This document shows positions 46,199 to 63,487 of a stretch of 64,000 nucleotides of DNA, piece after piece. Position 1 is the first letter of the stretch, and every line of letters begins with the position of its first letter. Source of the stretch: a virus; the IMG/VR virus record IMGVR_UViG_3300017991_000085, positions 1-64,000 of that record, one strand, 5' to 3'. The notes beneath the pieces were generated by a model, which made no database searches, was not told the DNA's origin, and saw only the letters and a program-made list of their open reading frames with translations. Position numbers and translations under genes: made by a program.

Positions 46199-46280
46199 TT
46201 TTAAGCCCTCCTCGCCGGCCTAATATCTCGAATGGAAAATCTAAATCTATCATACCGACTCTGTGTTATTGACTTCTCAA

Positions 46281-46353
46281 CTCCGGGGATAGGATTCGAA
46301 CCTATATATTTCTGATTAACAGTCAGACTCATTGCCAGTTATGATACCCCGGA
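46281..46353 (-). tRNA. tRNA-Asn(GTT)
   Basis: 73 bases fold into a full cloverleaf: acceptor TCCGGGG/CCCCGGA, D-stem TCAT/ATGA with loop AACTGGCA, anticodon stem TCTGA/TCAGA with loop CTGTTAA (anticodon GTT), variable AATAT, T-arm ATAGG-TTCGAAT-CCTAT, discriminator G. No CCA is encoded. It is the only canonical tRNA in the window. Its 5' half overlaps the 3' end of the 46316 endonuclease ORF, whose TAA stop is in the anticodon loop. Confidence 0.93.
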
Positions 46354-46765
46354 ATTCAGAAGTCAATTCATATTTTTCAGCCCAATTAATCCCCTTTTTT
46401 TGATTATTTTTAGGCTTGTTTATTCTCAAAAAAGCTCCATTAGCACTACAAGTTTTAACCGGAATAACATAAATATTATCATTCTCTGGACAATATACTG
46501 CAAACAAATTGCAGCTATTTTTATAATCCATTTTCTTAGCTCTTTTTCCAGATCCAGAGAAATTATAAGTATAAAAATGAATTACTCCTCTTTTTAATCG
46601 ACCAGTCTTAATCTGAATCTTTAGTAATTTCCCCTCCATATCTGCGATTAGATCATACCTTTGATTATCTCCGAATGGAATAGATACAGTTATTCCCAAC
46701 TCAATAAATCTTGATATAACTTTGGCTTCAGAAATATCGCCAATCTGTTTTGTATTGTTCCTCAT
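46316..46765 (-). CDS. PD-(D/E)XK (I-Ssp6803I-like) endonuclease
   Basis: 149 residues from ATG 46765, which makes ATGA with the preceding stop (a GTG 12 bases upstream is possible). TKQIGDISEAKVISRFIELGITVSIPFGDNQRYDLIADMEGKLLKIQIKTGRLKRG has E13, D38 and QIK (Q51, K53), the active-site pattern of the PDDEXK_5 family, known from intron-encoded homing endonuclease I-Ssp6803I. The last 12 codons (about 38 bases) run through the 5' half of tRNA-Asn. It may be a free-standing mobile endonuclease that targets or marks this tRNA locus. Confidence 0.75.
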   Translation of the reverse strand: MRNNTKQIGDISEAKVISRFIELGITVSIPFGDNQRYDLIADMEGKLLKIQIKTGRLKRGVIHFYTYNFSGSGKRAKKMDYKNSCNLFAVYCPENDNIYVIPVKTCSANGAFLRINKPKNNQKKGINWAEKYELTSEFRGIITGNESDC

Positions 46766-52680: not shown

Positions 52681-54147
52681 TTATGAACGCCCAATGTTCT
52701 TCACGATACAATTCTTGCGAGGTGTATACATATGAAGAGCACCGTACATCAGCTGCATCCATCGATAGTTCGTACCAAGCAATGCAAGGTCGATCTTCAT
52801 CATGGTAAGAAGCTGTTTGAACGCAAAGTTGTCCTCGTTTACCTGCATGAGGTAAGCTTTGGACAAACCAGGCATACTAGCGTTGAAGTCAATATCCAAA
52901 TCACGGAAGTCACCGTCACCAGCGTGGAAGTTTGCAGGCTTCACGCGGCCGATAAACTCATGATTGCTCGACCCAGCCTTGGGTGAGCGGAAGATATTGA
53001 AATACTGAACACCACTCGGATTCGAACCCGGGAGAATATCCAGCACGACTTTGTCGCCAGCGGCCACGGTAACTGCCTTAGCAGCGCTTGCCAACGTTTC
53101 ACCGTCGGAATACACTGCTGAACACTTATACTCGTAAGCGCCAACGTCAACAGCCGCAAACTGAGAACTACCAGAAGCCGGGCTGTTGTCGCCTGAGTTC
53201 GCATCCTGAAGGGTAGGGGCCGATTCAGCTGAAACGGCCGCAGCCAACGGAATACGACGAGGACGCTGGAACACGCCAGACTTAAGGTTGAAAGTACCAG
53301 AACCGGAAACGAACTGCTTCACAACGTAACCAGCTTTTCCTTCCATACCGAGCGTATTGATGCGCTCCTTGGCATAGAAAGCACGACTGAAGTCACTGTG
53401 GGCTTTCGTATCCATATACATATCCGTGCACATACCGAAATTGTTGGCCTGAACGAGGGCTGCCTCTTCGAGGATTTCCTCATCCAAAACCTCTCCACTC
53501 TGGAGATCATTTCGTTTGTCGAGGATGATGGTATCTGCGCCACTCAGCACATTGTAACCATCAAAGGCCTGAGCTTTAAACTCAGCCTGGCTCTCTTTGT
53601 CGCCAATCTGCTTATCAATACCGTCGAATTCGAGGCCATTGATTGAACTGTCGGCTGAAAAGAGGGCTCGCTCGAGCTGGGCCAGAATCCAAAGAGCACC
53701 ATTCTTGATCTCTCTCTGAACGATCGGACCATGAGCTTGCCTAACCAGCATAACGTCGTGGTTAATCTGTTTCTGAACGCCCATGTACTTGATCTGCACC
53801 ACGTTTCGGTCATAACCGGAATCCGCAGTTGCTGGAGCCGAGGCCATTGTGAAAAATGGAGGAATCTGGGCGCCATAACTGTTGTTCGTATTCGCTTGTT
53901 CAACCGTGTTGTATGCAGGAGTCTTCGGAATATCATTCCAAAGAAGCAGGTGCTTTTGTTCGTGGGTCACCACTCGGAGGGTCTTATCCAAAGATTCGAC
54001 CTGGAGAGCGGGAGCACCTGTAAAATCACCCGGAAGAGTATCCGAATAATTTTGGCTTGCAAAGCTGAGGGCTTTGCTGATTTCTTCAAGAAGCTGGGGA
54101 GCATCAGCTCCAAAACCAGTCAATGAAGAAGGATTGCTATTTTGCAT
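52681..54147 (-). CDS. Major capsid protein
   Basis: 488 residues, GGGAG ribosome site. Early segment ESLDKTLRVVTHEQKHLLLWNDIPKTPAYNTVEQANTNNSYG resembles major capsid proteins of large phages such as SPO1-type; VQIKYMGVQKQINHDVMLVRQAHGPIVQREIKNGALWILAQLERALFSAD and a C-terminal DFRDLDIDFNASMPGLSKAYLMQVNEDNFAFKQLLTMMKIDLALLG fit HK97-fold capsids. Residues about 320-420 (YEYKCSAVYSDGETLASAAKAVTVAAGDKV) look like an inserted Ig-like domain. Residues 25-53 are shared with the 54800 protein. Confidence 0.85.
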   Translation of the reverse strand: MQNSNPSSLTGFGADAPQLLEEISKALSFASQNYSDTLPGDFTGAPALQVESLDKTLRVVTHEQKHLLLWNDIPKTPAYNTVEQANTNNSYGAQIPPFFTMASAPATADSGYDRNVVQIKYMGVQKQINHDVMLVRQAHGPIVQREIKNGALWILAQLERALFSADSSINGLEFDGIDKQIGDKESQAEFKAQAFDGYNVLSGADTIILDKRNDLQSGEVLDEEILEEAALVQANNFGMCTDMYMDTKAHSDFSRAFYAKERINTLGMEGKAGYVVKQFVSGSGTFNLKSGVFQRPRRIPLAAAVSAESAPTLQDANSGDNSPASGSSQFAAVDVGAYEYKCSAVYSDGETLASAAKAVTVAAGDKVVLDILPGSNPSGVQYFNIFRSPKAGSSNHEFIGRVKPANFHAGDGDFRDLDIDFNASMPGLSKAYLMQVNEDNFAFKQLLTMMKIDLALLGTNYRWMQLMYGALHMYTPRKNCIVKNIGRS

Positions 54148-56867: not shown

Positions 56868-58823
56868 CTATTTCTTTCTGGCTTTTTCAATTTCCGCCTT
56901 TTTTAAGCTATGCTTAGCGTCCCAACGCCTAAGAAATTCCTTCTCACTGATGTTATACTTTGTTGGGTTCTTTTTCTTTGCCTCTTGAAACATCTTAAGA
57001 GCAACGCCACGATTACTAGCTATTCTCCCAGGCCCGCGATCGGCAAATGCCTGTCTTTGGATAGCTCTTGCTGACGTCCCTGGACCGGGCTTACGGCCGC
57101 TTCCAGGGCCCCCCTTTTCAAAAAGCTTGGCTCGCTGTTTCTTTTTCTCCTGTTCTTTCTTCCAGCTTTCTCCGGCTCTATATTCAGAAATCTTTTGTTT
57201 AGATTCTATTGCTCTATCAACCTTCTTTCCTTGATCTCGCGCTTGATTAAAATGACTGGTAGCTTTAACATTTTTTCCTTCTGCGACTGCACTGTGGAAA
57301 TCGGCTAGATGCTCGTGATATTTTGCTTTCTCTTTAGCAATCCCGCTACCAGAAACAGGAGCTCCTCCCTCAGTGCGACTTGGCTTAGATCTCTTCTCAG
57401 CTGCTTCTGCTTCCTTTCTGTGAGCGGCAGCAGCGTCTTTATGATCCTCTTTCGACCAATCATGATGATAGCCTACTGTATACCCGCTGTGACCTTTACC
57501 GTGTGAGGAATAAATAGGTTTGCCCGACTTCGTTCTTCCTATTACTTTTCCGCCTCTGGAGCCTTCTCCTGCTGCTTTATCGAGAGCTTCCGAAATCGCT
57601 TCAACGATTACGCTTTTAATGAAATGCTTCCTATCTTCTTTACGCGTAACAATTTTGGGCTTGAAATCTTCGCCAGGCTGGGCTTGATGATATTCAACGC
57701 GAGAAACATGTTCTTGATATGGAATGTGTAAGCTATTAACTGCTTCTTTAAAACGATTTAAGTGCCCGGGAGTATGAAATGAGTCTCCATGCTCACTAAT
57801 TATCTTTCCATGCTCATCTAAAAGTTTTTGAATTTTCTTGTACGTCTCGTTAGCATGGCTTTCGACAGCATCTCTACCTGGAGCATTATGTTCGCCCGCT
57901 CCTCGCTTTTTTCTTGGAGCCTTATCTTTTGCTCCCATGCGACGGGCCTTTTCGAGGACACTTAAAAGGGTCATTAAATTACTTTTTTTGACTCTTACTG
58001 CGCCCGGTGAAGGGGCGGAGGAGGCGACATCCCCTATCACCGGTTGACTAGCCACTGAAGGACTAGCCAGGGAAGAATCTTCATCTGTATATCCTAAAAG
58101 CTCGCCATCCTCCGACTTAGCAAGGGTTGGATTATCGTCGTAAGTAGAAAGCTCTACTGCTTCACTGTCCTTTTTCTTTTTCTTCTTTTCGCCATCCTGA
58201 ATTTTATCTGCCTGACTTGCGCCTTCGGCCTGAATCTTTTCTACCTCACCCTCTCCCACACTTTCAAGAATACAGGCCTTATCAATTTCTTCAATAGTAT
58301 CTGAGCACTCATTAACTTCAAACCTCTCAACAGATAAAGATTTGGCAATCTCTGCATAAGTGCTTGTATTGACTGGATCAAGTGTTAAGGCGACTTTCTC
58401 CACTCTCGCCCTTGCAATAACGCTCTTATCAATATCGTCTCGTTTAACAATCTTTCCCTCAATTGACATTTGCACTCTGTTCTTATCTGCTTTCTTCAAC
58501 GAGCGCATAATGTTATAGAAGGCCTGAGCGCGGGGTTGGTGCTTAAAAAGATAGCCCTCAACATACAACCCGTTCATTGTGTTTTGGGCATAATCGATCT
58601 TACCGAGAACATTTTCTGGGCCCTTTTGATGGTCGTTATTAAAAAGTCCTTTTCCGTTTTTCAACGGACCAATATCGAGCCCCGACTGCTGAACCACTTC
58701 ACCTTGTAAATCCTTATCACCTGTGGAAGCAATTCCTTTAATGCGCCATTCGTCTTCGTTCTCGCCTTTGGCGAGCTCGACGGGCACAAAAAATTTGAAG
58801 GTGTCTTGGTCGCTTTTCCCCAT
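56868..58823 (-). CDS. Prohead protease with long C-terminal extension
   Basis: 651 residues, ATG with GGAG. Residues 10-160 are a phage S78-type prohead protease: FNNDHQKGPENVLG (His65), NRVQMSIEGKI (Ser120) and KVALTLDPVN. The remaining about 490 residues are disordered, Ser/Lys-rich and contain GRTKSGKPIY (about 425) and FEKGGPGSGRKPGPG (about 575), motifs that recur in phage head proteins. It cuts scaffold and capsid N-termini during maturation. A class-2 promoter lies directly upstream. Confidence 0.85.
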   Translation of the reverse strand: MGKSDQDTFKFFVPVELAKGENEDEWRIKGIASTGDKDLQGEVVQQSGLDIGPLKNGKGLFNNDHQKGPENVLGKIDYAQNTMNGLYVEGYLFKHQPRAQAFYNIMRSLKKADKNRVQMSIEGKIVKRDDIDKSVIARARVEKVALTLDPVNTSTYAEIAKSLSVERFEVNECSDTIEEIDKACILESVGEGEVEKIQAEGASQADKIQDGEKKKKKKDSEAVELSTYDDNPTLAKSEDGELLGYTDEDSSLASPSVASQPVIGDVASSAPSPGAVRVKKSNLMTLLSVLEKARRMGAKDKAPRKKRGAGEHNAPGRDAVESHANETYKKIQKLLDEHGKIISEHGDSFHTPGHLNRFKEAVNSLHIPYQEHVSRVEYHQAQPGEDFKPKIVTRKEDRKHFIKSVIVEAISEALDKAAGEGSRGGKVIGRTKSGKPIYSSHGKGHSGYTVGYHHDWSKEDHKDAAAAHRKEAEAAEKRSKPSRTEGGAPVSGSGIAKEKAKYHEHLADFHSAVAEGKNVKATSHFNQARDQGKKVDRAIESKQKISEYRAGESWKKEQEKKKQRAKLFEKGGPGSGRKPGPGTSARAIQRQAFADRGPGRIASNRGVALKMFQEAKKKNPTKYNISEKEFLRRWDAKHSLKKAEIEKARKK

Positions 58824-60409: not shown

Positions 60410-60605
60410 CGTCTTTCTCCTTATCATCAAAAGACTCTTGATACGAAATATGAGCAACATGAACGCCTTCACTATAGAACGTTTTAACGCTTCCTATCAC
60501 AGCTCCTTTTATCTCAAGAATTTCTACAATTGCCCGCTCCAGCCTATCTTCAAATCCAATATCGTGCTCATCTCTTACAACTTTAATTCTAAAAACGCGT
60601 GTCAT
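60393..60605 (-). CDS. Cse60-like small protein
   Basis: 70 residues, GAGGAG upstream. FRIKVVRDEHDIGFEDRLERAIVEILEIKGAVIGSVKTFYSEGVHVAHISY follows the ferredoxin-like Cse60/sporulation small-protein pattern (short beta, helix, then SVxxxxxxxxxAxIxY). Function unknown. Confidence 0.5.
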   Translation of the reverse strand: MTRVFRIKVVRDEHDIGFEDRLERAIVEILEIKGAVIGSVKTFYSEGVHVAHISYQESFDDKEKDDDKQV

Positions 60606-61234
60606 TTTTCCACTCTCCTCTTATCGATCTTCTCTAAAATCTTACTTTTATCCTCGCAATATTTGTCCCAGTGTTTGTCACATAGACCTATCTTTCCAAG
60701 CTCCGGTACCATTACCCAACATTCCAGCTGCATCTTACAATACTTAACACTACACCTCAGATCTTTATCTTCATAATCTTGAAAAAAGCCTTTTTGAGCA
60801 GTGCCAGCAAATTCTGCTTCAATGTTTTGCCTATACAATTCTGCCGCTCCCTCCAGCGCATATCCTCTTTCATATTTGTACTTTCCCTCGTATGCTCTCT
60901 CCATCAACTGTTCCCCAACCTTGTCAACATATCTCTCCGCTCTTAATCCAATTTGTTTTGCTACATCATATGTCAAAGATCTGTTATGATACCGAGCAAA
61001 CTTTCTATCTAACTTACACTGCCAGTGTCCAAGCTCATGGAACAGGTGATTTAAAAATCGCTCTACATTCGTAAAACGACCCTTAGAGTCTCTCATGCTA
61101 ATTTTGATTTCTTTTGTCTCCAGATTGATCATAGCACCGCCGCATGTCGTCCAATCAAAGATCAATCCCAGCCCGCTTCTCAAAGCGATATCGATTCCTT
61201 TAGCTACATCTGGATGTTTCAAAAATCTATTCAC
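60602..61234 (-). CDS. HExxH metallopeptidase-like protein
   Basis: 210 residues from GTG 61234 (AAGGTGG upstream, overlapping the PilZ gene end); the longer ATG reading has a poor site. FLNHLFHELGHWQC supplies HExxH (His66, Glu67, His70), and a downstream AERYVDKVGEQLMERAY helix has Glu residues that could be the third ligand. Later Cys (CSVKYCKMQLEC ... CDKHW) suggest a second metal site. A peptidase domain is likely; target unknown. Confidence 0.65.
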   Translation of the reverse strand: MNRFLKHPDVAKGIDIALRSGLGLIFDWTTCGGAMINLETKEIKISMRDSKGRFTNVERFLNHLFHELGHWQCKLDRKFARYHNRSLTYDVAKQIGLRAERYVDKVGEQLMERAYEGKYKYERGYALEGAAELYRQNIEAEFAGTAQKGFFQDYEDKDLRCSVKYCKMQLECWVMVPELGKIGLCDKHWDKYCEDKSKILEKIDKRRVEK

Positions 61235-61589
61235 AATCCACCTTTGTGAATCCGCCCGTAAAACTAATCGCATATCCGAGGCGGCGATCTCTTTCTTTCC
61301 TTTTCCAGTTAACTCTCCTCACCTCTCCATATACTCTAAACGTGCTAGGTCCATACCAATTAGGATGCTTCAGTTTGACAAAAAGAACAACCTCCGCTCG
61401 AGGCCTAATCTTAATCTGATCCTCTTCTTTCACAATGATAAAGCAACCGCCAACGTTAAAATCATATACCGACCCCTTAGCAACTATCGTTCTAGTTTCC
61501 ATATCCATCATTGCTGCATTACTGCCAAGGAAGGTGAGAAGTCTGGGTTTCTTTCTTTTCTCTTCTTTATTTTCCATCCTCTGTTCCAC
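61227..61589 (-). CDS. PilZ-domain cyclic-di-GMP binding protein
   Basis: 120 residues, GTG start with AAAGG. R12-KKP-R16 forms RxxxR and 27 residues later D43-F-N45-V-G-G48 is the DxSxxG motif with Ser changed to Asn; a beta-barrel follows (RAEVVLFVKLKHPNWYG, STFRVYGEVRRVNW, LGYAISFTGG). Single-domain PilZ proteins sense cyclic-di-GMP. A diguanylate cyclase lies 1.2 kb upstream, so phage-encoded signalling is likely. Confidence 0.75.
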   Translation of the reverse strand: MEQRMENKEEKRKKPRLLTFLGSNAAMMDMETRTIVAKGSVYDFNVGGCFIIVKEEDQIKIRPRAEVVLFVKLKHPNWYGPSTFRVYGEVRRVNWKRKERDRRLGYAISFTGGFTKVDCE

Positions 61590-61609
61590 TTTAAACCTTT
61601 ACCTCTCTA

Positions 61610-61954
61610 TTATACATCATCATCATATCTTTGTCTGGTTATCCAACTAGCTACTTTTGAGATTATCTTTTCCATGGCGCCCGATTCGTGACAAACCAAC
61701 TCTAAGTAATAATCATGGTGATATTCTTTCAAGTCACTAATGATCATAAAAAGACTAAAATAAGGATCAGGCTCTTCTGCTTCTAACTCATAATAGTACA
61801 AAATATCAAGAGCATCAATGATCGGAAGAGACATCAGATCGGCGATATAAGACTGTCTGTCTTTTTGCAAGATCTCTTGAACCTCTCCAATCATCCGCTC
61901 AAGTTTCCTCTCTTTATAAGTCCTGAGATCAGTTACTGGTTTTTTCGGATCCAT
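61610..61954 (-). CDS. Hypothetical acidic helical protein
   Basis: 114 residues from ATG 61954; an earlier GTG at 61972 is possible. KERKLERMIGEVQEILQKDRQSYIADLMSLPIIDALDILYYYELEAEEPDPYFSLFMIISDL: helical with a Tyr-rich centre. No family recognised; lies between the PilZ gene and its upstream neighbour. Confidence 0.55.
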   Translation of the reverse strand: MDPKKPVTDLRTYKERKLERMIGEVQEILQKDRQSYIADLMSLPIIDALDILYYYELEAEEPDPYFSLFMIISDLKEYHHDYYLELVCHESGAMEKIISKVASWITRQRYDDDV

Positions 61955-62624
61955 GCCTGTAATTCCATTCACGCTTAACCGCAGCCAAAAACTCTTTCAC
62001 CGTTTGCCAGCGGGTCATTTCTCTGCCGGATGTTTTCACAAAATAAACGGGATAATGAATATAAATCTGATATAGATTATCAAAATAAGCATAAATTTTG
62101 TAGGGACCTTCATAAAACCAAGTATTATACCACTTCCACTCGGTTTTTCCTGGTGTTAGAATTCCACAATAAGCAAGGTAATCCAAAACTCTTTCTTCTC
62201 GAACTTTTTGCATCTCCTCTCTCACTTCCTCATACGGCCTATCACCAAACAATTCAGGAGTAGCTGTGCTCCAAACCGGTTTTCGATTTTTCATCTTCTC
62301 TTTGTGCTTTTTAGACATTTCTTTTTCATCCGCAACTTCAAAAGGAAAAACTCTTAAATCGTGCTCATAATAGATCTCGATGTCTGAGCCAACGAGCTCA
62401 GCAATTTTTCCTAACCAATTACGATCTTTATCCAGATCGACATCTCCATACCAAACGACCTCGCCATCGACTACTACATTTGAATTATAAACTGCCATTG
62501 CCGGCCCTCGACTTTTCGATGCGCTCACAAGACGCCCCGGACGACCGAGAAGAATACTCAAAATTGCTCCAGGGTCTTTATCTGAACACAGAGCTTGAAT
62601 CTTTTTTTTAATTTTTGTTCCCAT
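61929..62624 (-). CDS. Hypothetical protein
   Basis: 231 residues, GAGGAGAG upstream. RPGRLVSASKSRGPAMAVYNSNVVVDGEVVWYGDVDLDKDRNWLGKIAELVGSDIEIYYEHDLRVFPF, a beta-rich first half, then a charged helix and an aromatic C-terminus (WYNTWFYEGPYKIYAYFDNLYQIYIHYP). No family recognised. Confidence 0.6.
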   Translation of the reverse strand: MGTKIKKKIQALCSDKDPGAILSILLGRPGRLVSASKSRGPAMAVYNSNVVVDGEVVWYGDVDLDKDRNWLGKIAELVGSDIEIYYEHDLRVFPFEVADEKEMSKKHKEKMKNRKPVWSTATPELFGDRPYEEVREEMQKVREERVLDYLAYCGILTPGKTEWKWYNTWFYEGPYKIYAYFDNLYQIYIHYPVYFVKTSGREMTRWQTVKEFLAAVKREWNYRHGSEKTSN

Positions 62625-62817
62625 TTTTTCTCTCCTCTATTTCGTTAAGCCGACATAACCAAGTAAACAGCTTAGCAATTCGACATTCATAAAGAGCTAT
62701 CCGCTCTAAATTTCCTGGTCTAGCTCTTTCAAGCGGATCCCAGAAAAGCTTATTTATTTTTTCTTGAAGCTGGTCTCGTTTTCTTATTACCATTGCTTTC
62801 ATTGGATGAATGTACAT
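62608..62817 (-). CDS. Small basic helical protein
   Basis: 69 residues; overlaps the cyclase end by 68 bases, and GGGGTGATTAGAC precedes the ATG. MVIRKRDQLQEKINKLFWDPLERARPGNLERIALYECRIAKLFTWLCRLNEIEER. Helical, basic; start uncertain because in-frame ATGs lie at 62802 and 62793. Confidence 0.5.
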   Translation of the reverse strand: MYIHPMKAMVIRKRDQLQEKINKLFWDPLERARPGNLERIALYECRIAKLFTWLCRLNEIEERKNGNKN

Positions 62818-63445
62818 GTCTAATCACCCCATGGCCATAGCCTTCATGGCTAAAATCCATAATTGTAGTAAATACTAATGAATCTTTTTTTTCTTTAGCG
62901 ATATACATGCCCCGATCAGCCGCTGTAATTAGCTCTTCTGCTTTGTCTCCTTTACTATATGATACAACCCCCATACTGGCCGTAACCTTAATTGAATCAT
63001 ACTTAAACCTCATTTTCCTGTGGAGACGTTCGTAAAAATCAGCTGCTTTGTTAGGAGATTTGTTTAAGCTAATCACAACAAATTCTTCTCCTCCCCAGCG
63101 AAATGCCTTATCATAGGATCGAGTTTGCTGACGTAAAGTTTCTCCTACTTTTTTAAGAATTTTATCTCCTACTGCATGCCCATGAGTGTCGTTGATCTGT
63201 TTAAAGTTGTCCAAATCAATAAAACCAAGAGATAAAACTCCACCAATCCGATCGCATTGGTTGGTCAACTCTTCAAAATACCTATAGAAAGACTTGCGAT
63301 GATGCAAACCTGTAAGCTCATCGCAAAAACTAATGCCAAATTTTTCTAGAAAATCAATGAGTTTTGTGGCGAGAATGAGCGAACAATCGTTTTTGTGCTC
63401 ATCGATAAATAGAGTCAGTTCGCCTGTGAAATTGTCCTTTTTCAT
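62750..63445 (-). CDS. Phage-encoded diguanylate cyclase (GGDEF)
   Basis: 231 residues, AGGAG site, directly behind a sigma70-like promoter. After a 40-residue N-terminus without a recognisable sensor, DELTGLHHR, FIDLDNFKQINDTHGHAVGD, RWGGEEF (118-122) and AADRGMYIAKE are all intact, and RSYD (R109, D112) five residues before GGEEF is the product-inhibition I-site. It should make cyclic-di-GMP from GTP in the host cytoplasm and be feedback-inhibited. The C-terminal 35 residues are a polar extension. Confidence 0.88.
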   Translation of the reverse strand: MKKDNFTGELTLFIDEHKNDCSLILATKLIDFLEKFGISFCDELTGLHHRKSFYRYFEELTNQCDRIGGVLSLGFIDLDNFKQINDTHGHAVGDKILKKVGETLRQQTRSYDKAFRWGGEEFVVISLNKSPNKAADFYERLHRKMRFKYDSIKVTASMGVVSYSKGDKAEELITAADRGMYIAKEKKDSLVFTTIMDFSHEGYGHGVIRHVHSSNESNGNKKTRPASRKNK

Positions 63446-63458
63446 AGCTCCTACTTAT

Positions 63459-63487
63459 ATTATAGTAGACCTCTATCAAAAAGGCAA
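63459..63487 (-). promoter_or_regulatory. Sigma70-like promoter of the diguanylate cyclase gene
   Basis: TTGCCT, 17 bases beginning TTTT, TATAAT then ATAAG on the minus strand; predicted start about 10 bases before the AGGAG site. Shares TTGCCTTTTT and TATAATATAAG with the 47995 promoter. This points to host-polymerase transcription soon after infection. Confidence 0.78.

Follow-up and report, generated by a model that had tools for sequence, protein, structure and literature searches.

In Bacillus subtilis, the diguanylate cyclase (DGC) DgcP carries further domains, and MotI (DgrA), a PilZ receptor, has a YcgR-type two-domain architecture. DgcP and DgrA have been described as a direct DGC-receptor pair for cyclic diguanosine monophosphate (c-di-GMP) (PMC7064775). 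Cyclases are also known from phages: those in print include LK3 and the yuaviruses (PMC8471281), an auxiliary gene of a Mu-like virus from the Cariaco Basin (PMC7785012) and, for Methylobacterium viruses of glacier ice, a cyclase shown in a figure (PMC8290583), and GGDEF domains are encoded by YuA and its relatives, Bordetella phages CN1, CN2 and LK3, Bacillus phages G and SP-15, and Myxococcus phage Mx1. Here, we describe two genes located in bases 1–64,000 (the window) of the 90,697-base virus record IMGVR_UViG_3300017991_000085, one coding for a GGDEF protein and the other, 1.16 kb downstream on the same strand, for a probable PilZ protein:

62750–63445, minus strand: stand-alone GGDEF (diguanylate cyclase) protein of 231 amino acids (aa), matching Pfam GGDEF and TIGR00254
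61227–61589, minus strand: probable single-domain PilZ protein, 120 aa, GTG start, with RKKPR and DFNVGG

We tentatively read the two genes as a small phage-encoded c-di-GMP module, a reading that we hold at slightly less than even confidence. The DgcP/DgcK and DgrA proteins of B. subtilis likewise join a cyclase and a PilZ receptor as a direct pair; that pair, unlike the one in the window, is cellular. An earlier note on this DNA proposed that one phage encodes both synthesis and sensing of c-di-GMP, and this is still the best reading of the sequence, with the PilZ half only probable. The same note called a phage with both functions unusual. This has to be tempered: phage cyclases are not rare, and the pairing is present in SP-15, so the window pair is not unique.

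The GGDEF Protein

Judged by its sequence, the 231-aa protein certainly contains an unmistakable GGDEF domain, with the hallmarks of an active, product-inhibited diguanylate cyclase. It scores 132.5 bits against Pfam GGDEF (PF00990; E 1.6e-38), exceeding the cut-off of 23.8, and 141.2 bits (2.5e-41) against TIGR00254; the best match to a solved structure is 6d9m (E 9.4e-26). The motifs DELTGL, FIDLDNFKQINDTHGHAVGD, RSYD-KAF-RWGGEEF, TASMGV and AADRGMYIAK are kept, and FIDLDNFKQIND...GD and RWGGEEF align with solved cyclases. In such enzymes, the aligned residues serve as the metal-binding Asp, the guanine-binding Asn/Asp and the GG[DE]EF active loop. The RxxD inhibitory site (I-site; RSYD) stands 3 residues before RWGGEEF and 5 before the loop (RSYDKAFRWGGEEF). 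Thus, the complete GGDEF protein with a GGEEF loop and an RxxD site announced in the earlier note is indeed there.

Pfam recognised no sensor domain in the first ~38 residues of the protein. With a single domain over the Pfam cut-off, it is not a multidomain polyvalent protein.

A bacterial genome scan with the GGDEF protein retrieved sequences of 33–42% identity from many phyla among the matches listed (80 of 582 loci), and with relatives spread so widely no donor or host can be named. Among 50,697 phage records, 169 matched at E <= 1e-3, all of them below 60% identity; this is a search count of which a minority was inspected, and at least one match is plainly host sequence. That match, ON470595, was rejected as a phage cyclase, the matching gene being DgcM adjoining ttcA and dbpA.

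The PilZ-Like Protein

The 120-aa protein is probably PilZ, an assignment drawn from motifs and profile scores. RxxxR is present as RKKPR (residues 12–16), and the second PilZ motif ([DN]xSxxG) as DFNVGG (residues 43–48), where Asn replaces the usual Ser, as had been noticed earlier. With a home-made hidden Markov model (HMM), built from 16 hand-kept bacterial PilZ domains, the protein scored 14.8 bits and ranked first of 406 phage open reading frames (ORFs), the second scoring 5.4; none of 2000 shuffled sequences reached this score (best shuffle, 9.0). The Pfam PilZ profile (PF07238) aligned residues 11–110 with profile positions 2–85 of 102. The position and strand expected for a single-domain PilZ gene (1.2 kb downstream in the earlier note) therefore stand, at 1.16 kb, while for the family the Pfam cut-off is missed and the score is above chance.

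The assignment also has evidence against it. The Pfam score, 14.4 bits (E 0.05), does not reach the cut-off of 22.5. The Ser replaced by Asn was seen by eye in 16/16 domains of the HMM, a count biased by the choice of these domains for their canonical looks. Two AlphaFold2 models, of the protein alone and with a five-row alignment, had a mean predicted local distance difference test (pLDDT) score of 47.2 and 46.9, respectively, and neither gave a Foldseek match below E 0.001. For the first model, the T4 tail terminator ranked first (E 0.11, probability 0.23) and MotI/DgrA second and third (E 0.16–0.18, probability 0.82 and 0.75); for the second, the YcgR PilZ domain ranked first (E 0.089, probability 0.96), among tail-tube and flavin mononucleotide (FMN)-barrel matches. 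At a mean pLDDT of ~47, the models are too weak for a claim of a PilZ fold, and we take the matches to MotI and YcgR as weak hints.

The same data can be read as indicating that the 120-aa protein belongs not to the PilZ family but to a different kind of small beta-barrel, such as a head or tail completion protein. Its gene lies among head genes, its score is below the Pfam cut-off, and the matches of both low-confidence models include FMN split barrels and tail terminator or tube proteins, with the T4 tail terminator first for one of them. We give this reading little credence, given the plausible spacing of RxxxR and D-x-x-x-G-G, the alignment over most of the PilZ profile and the failure of every shuffled sequence to score as well.

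The replacement of Ser by Asn does not settle c-di-GMP binding, because the precedents go both ways: both PilZ domains of Myxococcus xanthus PixB lack the conserved Ser, yet the protein bound c-di-GMP in vitro, while Myxococcus PlpA, in which the residues are present, reportedly does not bind it (PMC8316039).

Database searches with the protein were largely negative. It went unmatched in NCBIfam at E <= 1 and in PHROG at E <= 0.1, and was missed when Pfam PilZ was applied to the whole record. No relative appeared in a bacterial genome-contig scan, no PilZ match in a protein search of 5 genomes from the phylum of G011, and none when the window PilZ or a made-up PilZ consensus was compared with phages by tblastn. 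Three bacterial PilZ domains used as queries against phages retrieved three records, of Pseudomonas phage Y13 and, twice, of Acinetobacter phage MD-2021a. The matches at OQ572414.1 620–922 (Y13) and CAKLQH020000011.1 77638–77829 (MD-2021a) may be phage genes or host sequence.

Comparison with SP-15 and Other Phages

Bacillus phage SP-15, like the window phage, encodes a stand-alone GGDEF protein (SP15_150, 133541–134092) and a single-domain PilZ protein (SP15_170, 148761–149114, annotated Pfam PilZ; 31.3 bits) in one genome. In SP-15 the two genes are ~15 kb apart, as against 1.16 kb in the window phage, and neither is beside an annotated head gene in the stretches examined; the SP-15 PilZ protein keeps the canonical Ser (DISATG), whereas the window protein has DFNVGG. 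Since SP-15 belongs to a different phage lineage (Thornevirus) and infects Bacillus, this parallel suggests that the pairing may have arisen more than once. The main text of the SP-15 genome paper does not contain the word PilZ, and the paper names the cyclase in a single place, a figure legend (PMC5977210). Our literature search found no paper describing a phage GGDEF/PilZ pair, that of SP-15 included.

Co-occurrence of the two domains in other phages was checked with Pfam PilZ on six GGDEF-bearing phage records, one of which, SP-15, matched; the other five (Mx1, YuA, CN1, G and phiAX1) did not. YuA gp44 and its relatives (Yuavirus, Vojvodinavirus) are phage GGDEF proteins, as is the window protein, and the YuA record notes for gp44 a putative role in host cell conversion. 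The YuA gene differs in being located upstream of the terminase genes and not within the head block, and its match covers a partial domain.

Cyclases without a detected PilZ partner point to a rival explanation, in which the window cyclase is an ordinary host-takeover gene that raises the general c-di-GMP pool of the host and acts through host receptors. The absence of a detected PilZ protein from five of the six records favours it, as do the change of Ser to Asn in the PilZ-like protein and the report of a DGC among the auxiliary genes of a Mu-like virus (PMC7785012). Lysogens of Bordetella bronchiseptica carrying LK3, which has a GGDEF gene, formed more biofilm, though the study does not show why; flagellar motility of these lysogens also rose, which is not what high c-di-GMP would most simply be expected to cause (PMC8471281). 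On the other side, the GGDEF and PilZ-like genes are 1.16 kb apart in one gene run, both types of gene recur in SP-15, and the absences elsewhere are weak evidence, because Pfam PilZ is too insensitive to detect even the window protein. We consider host takeover by the cyclase alone unlikely, while regarding it as a serious rival to the two-gene module.

The Gene Run in the Head Block and Its Counterpart in Mx1

The late genes of the record are on the minus strand, with small ORFs interspersed among the named genes. Their order is terminase large subunit, portal, head morphogenesis protein, trigger-factor-like protein, ClpP-like and HtrA-like proteases, the GGDEF gene, three ORFs without assigned function, the PilZ-like gene, a zincin-like gene, head maturation protease and major head protein. 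The features surrounding the GGDEF/PilZ cassette are as follows:

record 72148–74043, minus strand, late block: terminase large subunit
late block, minus strand: portal (phrog_12, 5.8e-42)
late block, minus strand: head morphogenesis protein (phrog_2468, 4.2e-5)
record 67469–68293, head block: trigger-factor-like phage protein (partial trigger factor match, 5.6e-26)
record 64179–65868, just upstream of the cassette: HtrA/DegP-like protease overlapping ClpP-like protease
63459–63487, minus strand: promoter-like TTGCCT-17-TATAAT (10/12 match) within the 71 bases that precede the GGDEF gene
62608–62817, minus strand: ORF of 69 aa, no Pfam match, overlapping the GGDEF gene at its end
61929–62624, minus strand: ORF of 231 aa between the GGDEF and PilZ genes, no function assigned (Pfam, PHROG and NCBIfam searched)
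61610–61972, minus strand: ORF of 120 aa ending 20 bases before the PilZ start, no function assigned (same searches)
60602–61273, minus strand: candidate zincin-like metallopeptidase, 223 aa, HELGH (WLM 0.0067, MPTase-PolyVal 0.028, both below cut-off)
56868–58823, minus strand: head maturation protease, downstream flank of the cassette (phrog_1028, 3.3e-36)
52681–54147, minus strand: major head protein (phrog_752, 1.3e-65)

In the gene run from 65060 to 60176, 9 of the 11 junctions overlap, a number that may be overstated because start codons were the tool's first choice. The other two are gapped, by 71 bases before the GGDEF gene, the longest gap of the 11, and by 20 bases before the PilZ gene; the zincin-like gene overlaps the 3' end of the PilZ gene by 47 bases. 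The GGDEF and PilZ genes thus belong to a single, closely packed minus-strand run within the head-morphogenesis block.

The earlier note placed the GGDEF gene behind its own strong promoter, and this we reject. Sites of the grade of TTGCCT-17-TATAAT number 16 in the region, compared with 12.5 +/- 3.9 in shuffled sequences, which is at chance level. In addition, the placement is doubtful: 13 bases separate the end of the -10 box from the ATG, and a transcript starting so close would be expected to have its 5' end within the ribosome-binding site AGGAG. A TATAAT twin before the PilZ gene overlaps the stop codon of the upstream frame and was likewise rejected. Since the 71-base gap is the longest of the 11 junctions, the run may contain an internal promoter.

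The closest cultured relative found is Myxococcus phage Mx1, whose terminase is 29% identical over 83% of the query. When the joined record was compared with Mx1, 27 query ORFs matched (E <= 1e-4), of which one is an antisense shadow, leaving 26 on the coding strand; the matches include annotated tail sheath and baseplate genes of Mx1. From these similarities, we infer that the window virus is an Mx1-like phage with a contractile tail. The G+C content is 40% in the window phage versus 56% in Mx1.

Mx1, like the window phage, has a GGDEF gene in its head block. The product, WNM70324.1, is annotated as a nucleotide cyclase and encoded between prohead protease and capsid genes; it is 42% identical to the window protein over 48 aa (E 1e-6). 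It diverges from the window protein in matching Pfam GGDEF at 38.4 bits over profile positions 31–149 only, in having no RxxD that we could see, and in the order of genes, its gene following the protease gene, which the window GGDEF gene precedes. A further GGDEF domain (34.6 bits) is found in the viral contig of L004 (IMGVR_UViG_3300022695_000064; L004 2950–12246), in a protein of at least 3099 aa that also contains ddrB-ParB, LPD5, LPD1 and ART-PolyVal domains. GGDEF domains in polyvalent proteins have been described, and injection with the DNA was inferred for this class of proteins (Iyer et al. 2017, PMC5512222).

With a GGDEF gene in the head blocks of the window phage and Mx1, two distant relatives, one may ask about virion delivery, in which the particle would carry the GGDEF protein into the host alongside the DNA, to act at the start of infection. 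The location of the window gene between the portal and the head protease and capsid genes is consistent with this, as are the location of the Mx1 gene and the polyvalent protein with its GGDEF domain. The window protein, however, is small and stand-alone, with no packaging signal, and head gene blocks can carry unrelated passenger genes, which makes packaging of the cyclase improbable. Delivery of both the cyclase and the PilZ protein as virion cargo is a slighter prospect still. If it were true, the surface or motility state of the host would change before any phage gene is expressed, and the GGDEF proteins of Mx1 and of the polyvalent type would represent variants of this strategy.

Several further observations were made on the record. 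The N-terminal stretch of the HtrA/DegP-like protease is hydrophobic. A DNA polymerase III alpha-like protein (record 84221–87373) is common to Mx1 (28% over 764 aa). The window has a single tRNA-Asn (GTT) gene (46280–46354, minus strand). At record 89343–90696, a gene for a FolE2-type GTP cyclohydrolase (1.2e-50) continues past the end of the record; beside it is a weak DpdA-like protein (E 0.0095, far below cut-off), and the two may belong to a 7-deazaguanine DNA modification route.

Conservation Among Related Viruses

Viral scans with the PilZ (two queries), GGDEF, terminase, capsid, portal, protease and metallopeptidase sequences retrieved few relatives. Record IMGVR_UViG_3300018080_000123 (113.6 kb) is 99.97% identical to the window over the compared stretches, and is therefore the same phage; it carries both genes, and its GGDEF protein is identical to that of the window. 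The earlier note regarded a finding that the two genes are never conserved together as contrary to its proposal, and what we observe is both of them in two records of essentially one phage.

Record IMGVR_UViG_3300018080_000170 (G005, 70.4 kb) has 14 of its 19 aligned pieces at 72–84% nucleotide identity and, on this sequence measure, is a second species. Its contig begins inside the PilZ gene, the last 33 residues of which are 73% identical; the ratio of nonsynonymous to synonymous substitution (dN/dS) at this 3' end is ~0.2 over 33 codons, and the zincin-like gene is 82% identical. A GGDEF match is absent from the record, the region appearing to lie off the contig. Conservation in the second species thus extends to at least the PilZ 3' end, the contig stopping before the cyclase.

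The following points weigh against a conserved two-gene module. About 15 of the 33 compared PilZ codons overlap the next gene, so that their conservation is not independent. Neither GGDEF nor PilZ was found with Pfam models in the whole records of three more distant relatives (L017, L018 and L019), or in two others (L135 and L136) in stretches covering 7.1 kb and 1.6 kb, respectively, upstream of the protease gene; such records may be fragments, and L008 and L009 do not cover the cassette. PilZ was not detected in Mx1 with either Pfam PilZ or the home-made HMM (best 7.3 bits, E 0.41). Conversely, Listeria phage LIS04, a relative of SP-15, encodes a protein resembling PilZ (43.8% over 62% of the query) and gave no GGDEF match. 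The two genes are therefore separable, as seen from a GGDEF gene with no detected PilZ in Mx1 and a PilZ-like gene with no GGDEF in LIS04. Because Pfam PilZ misses the window's own protein, the absence of PilZ rests on the home-made HMM, whose best score on stretches of L008, L009, L017, L018, L135 and L136 was 4.7 bits. As far as seen, the GGDEF/PilZ pair is an accessory of the lineage, not part of its core.

The LIS04 protein (LIS04_146, OQ999172.1 139224–139538), a PilZ-like relative of SP15_170, is annotated as hypothetical. In L009 (IMGVR_UViG_3300031965_000590, 2–2215), the terminase large subunit contains an in-frame insert of ~145 residues beginning CVTENTYVLSDG, which by eye resembles an intein.

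Possible Role of the Cyclase and the PilZ-Like Protein

In the two-gene module that we tentatively prefer, a soluble cyclase would make c-di-GMP in the infected cell. As no sensor is recognised, how much it makes would depend on expression, dimerisation and the inhibitory I-site. The stand-alone PilZ protein would bind c-di-GMP and serve as an adaptor on the flagellar, pilus or exopolysaccharide machinery of the host. Phages of Pseudomonas aeruginosa tune pili by means of small proteins, Tip, Aqs1 and Zip, that bind PilB or a host PilZ protein (PMC11656802), which makes action of a phage PilZ protein on pili conceivable. No EAL phosphodiesterase domain was found in the 3 records searched for it, and no HD_5 domain in 5.

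Production of both proteins would coincide with that of the head proteins, probably late. The phage could plausibly benefit from a block to superinfection, a change of surface receptors before lysis, or a cell held still; since the position in the head block suggests late expression, a superinfection block or surface change is likelier than an early takeover. Interference of the module with cyclic-nucleotide defence, by a decoy signal or by sequestration, was also considered. Some phage proteins are known to sequester or degrade defence signals, and in its fold the Panoptes synthase OptS is similar to PleD, a GGDEF protein (PMC12657218). With no c-di-GMP-using defence system tied to the window phage, we find this role very hard to credit.

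Where the cited literature argues for effects of phages on c-di-GMP, it does so from single cyclase genes. With a probable receptor encoded in the same gene run, the window cyclase would instead be part of a self-contained unit, raising the question of whether a phage can signal to itself through a second messenger of its host. The presence of the two among head genes suggests that the phage may have borrowed a compact piece of signalling machinery with which the infected cell could be retuned.

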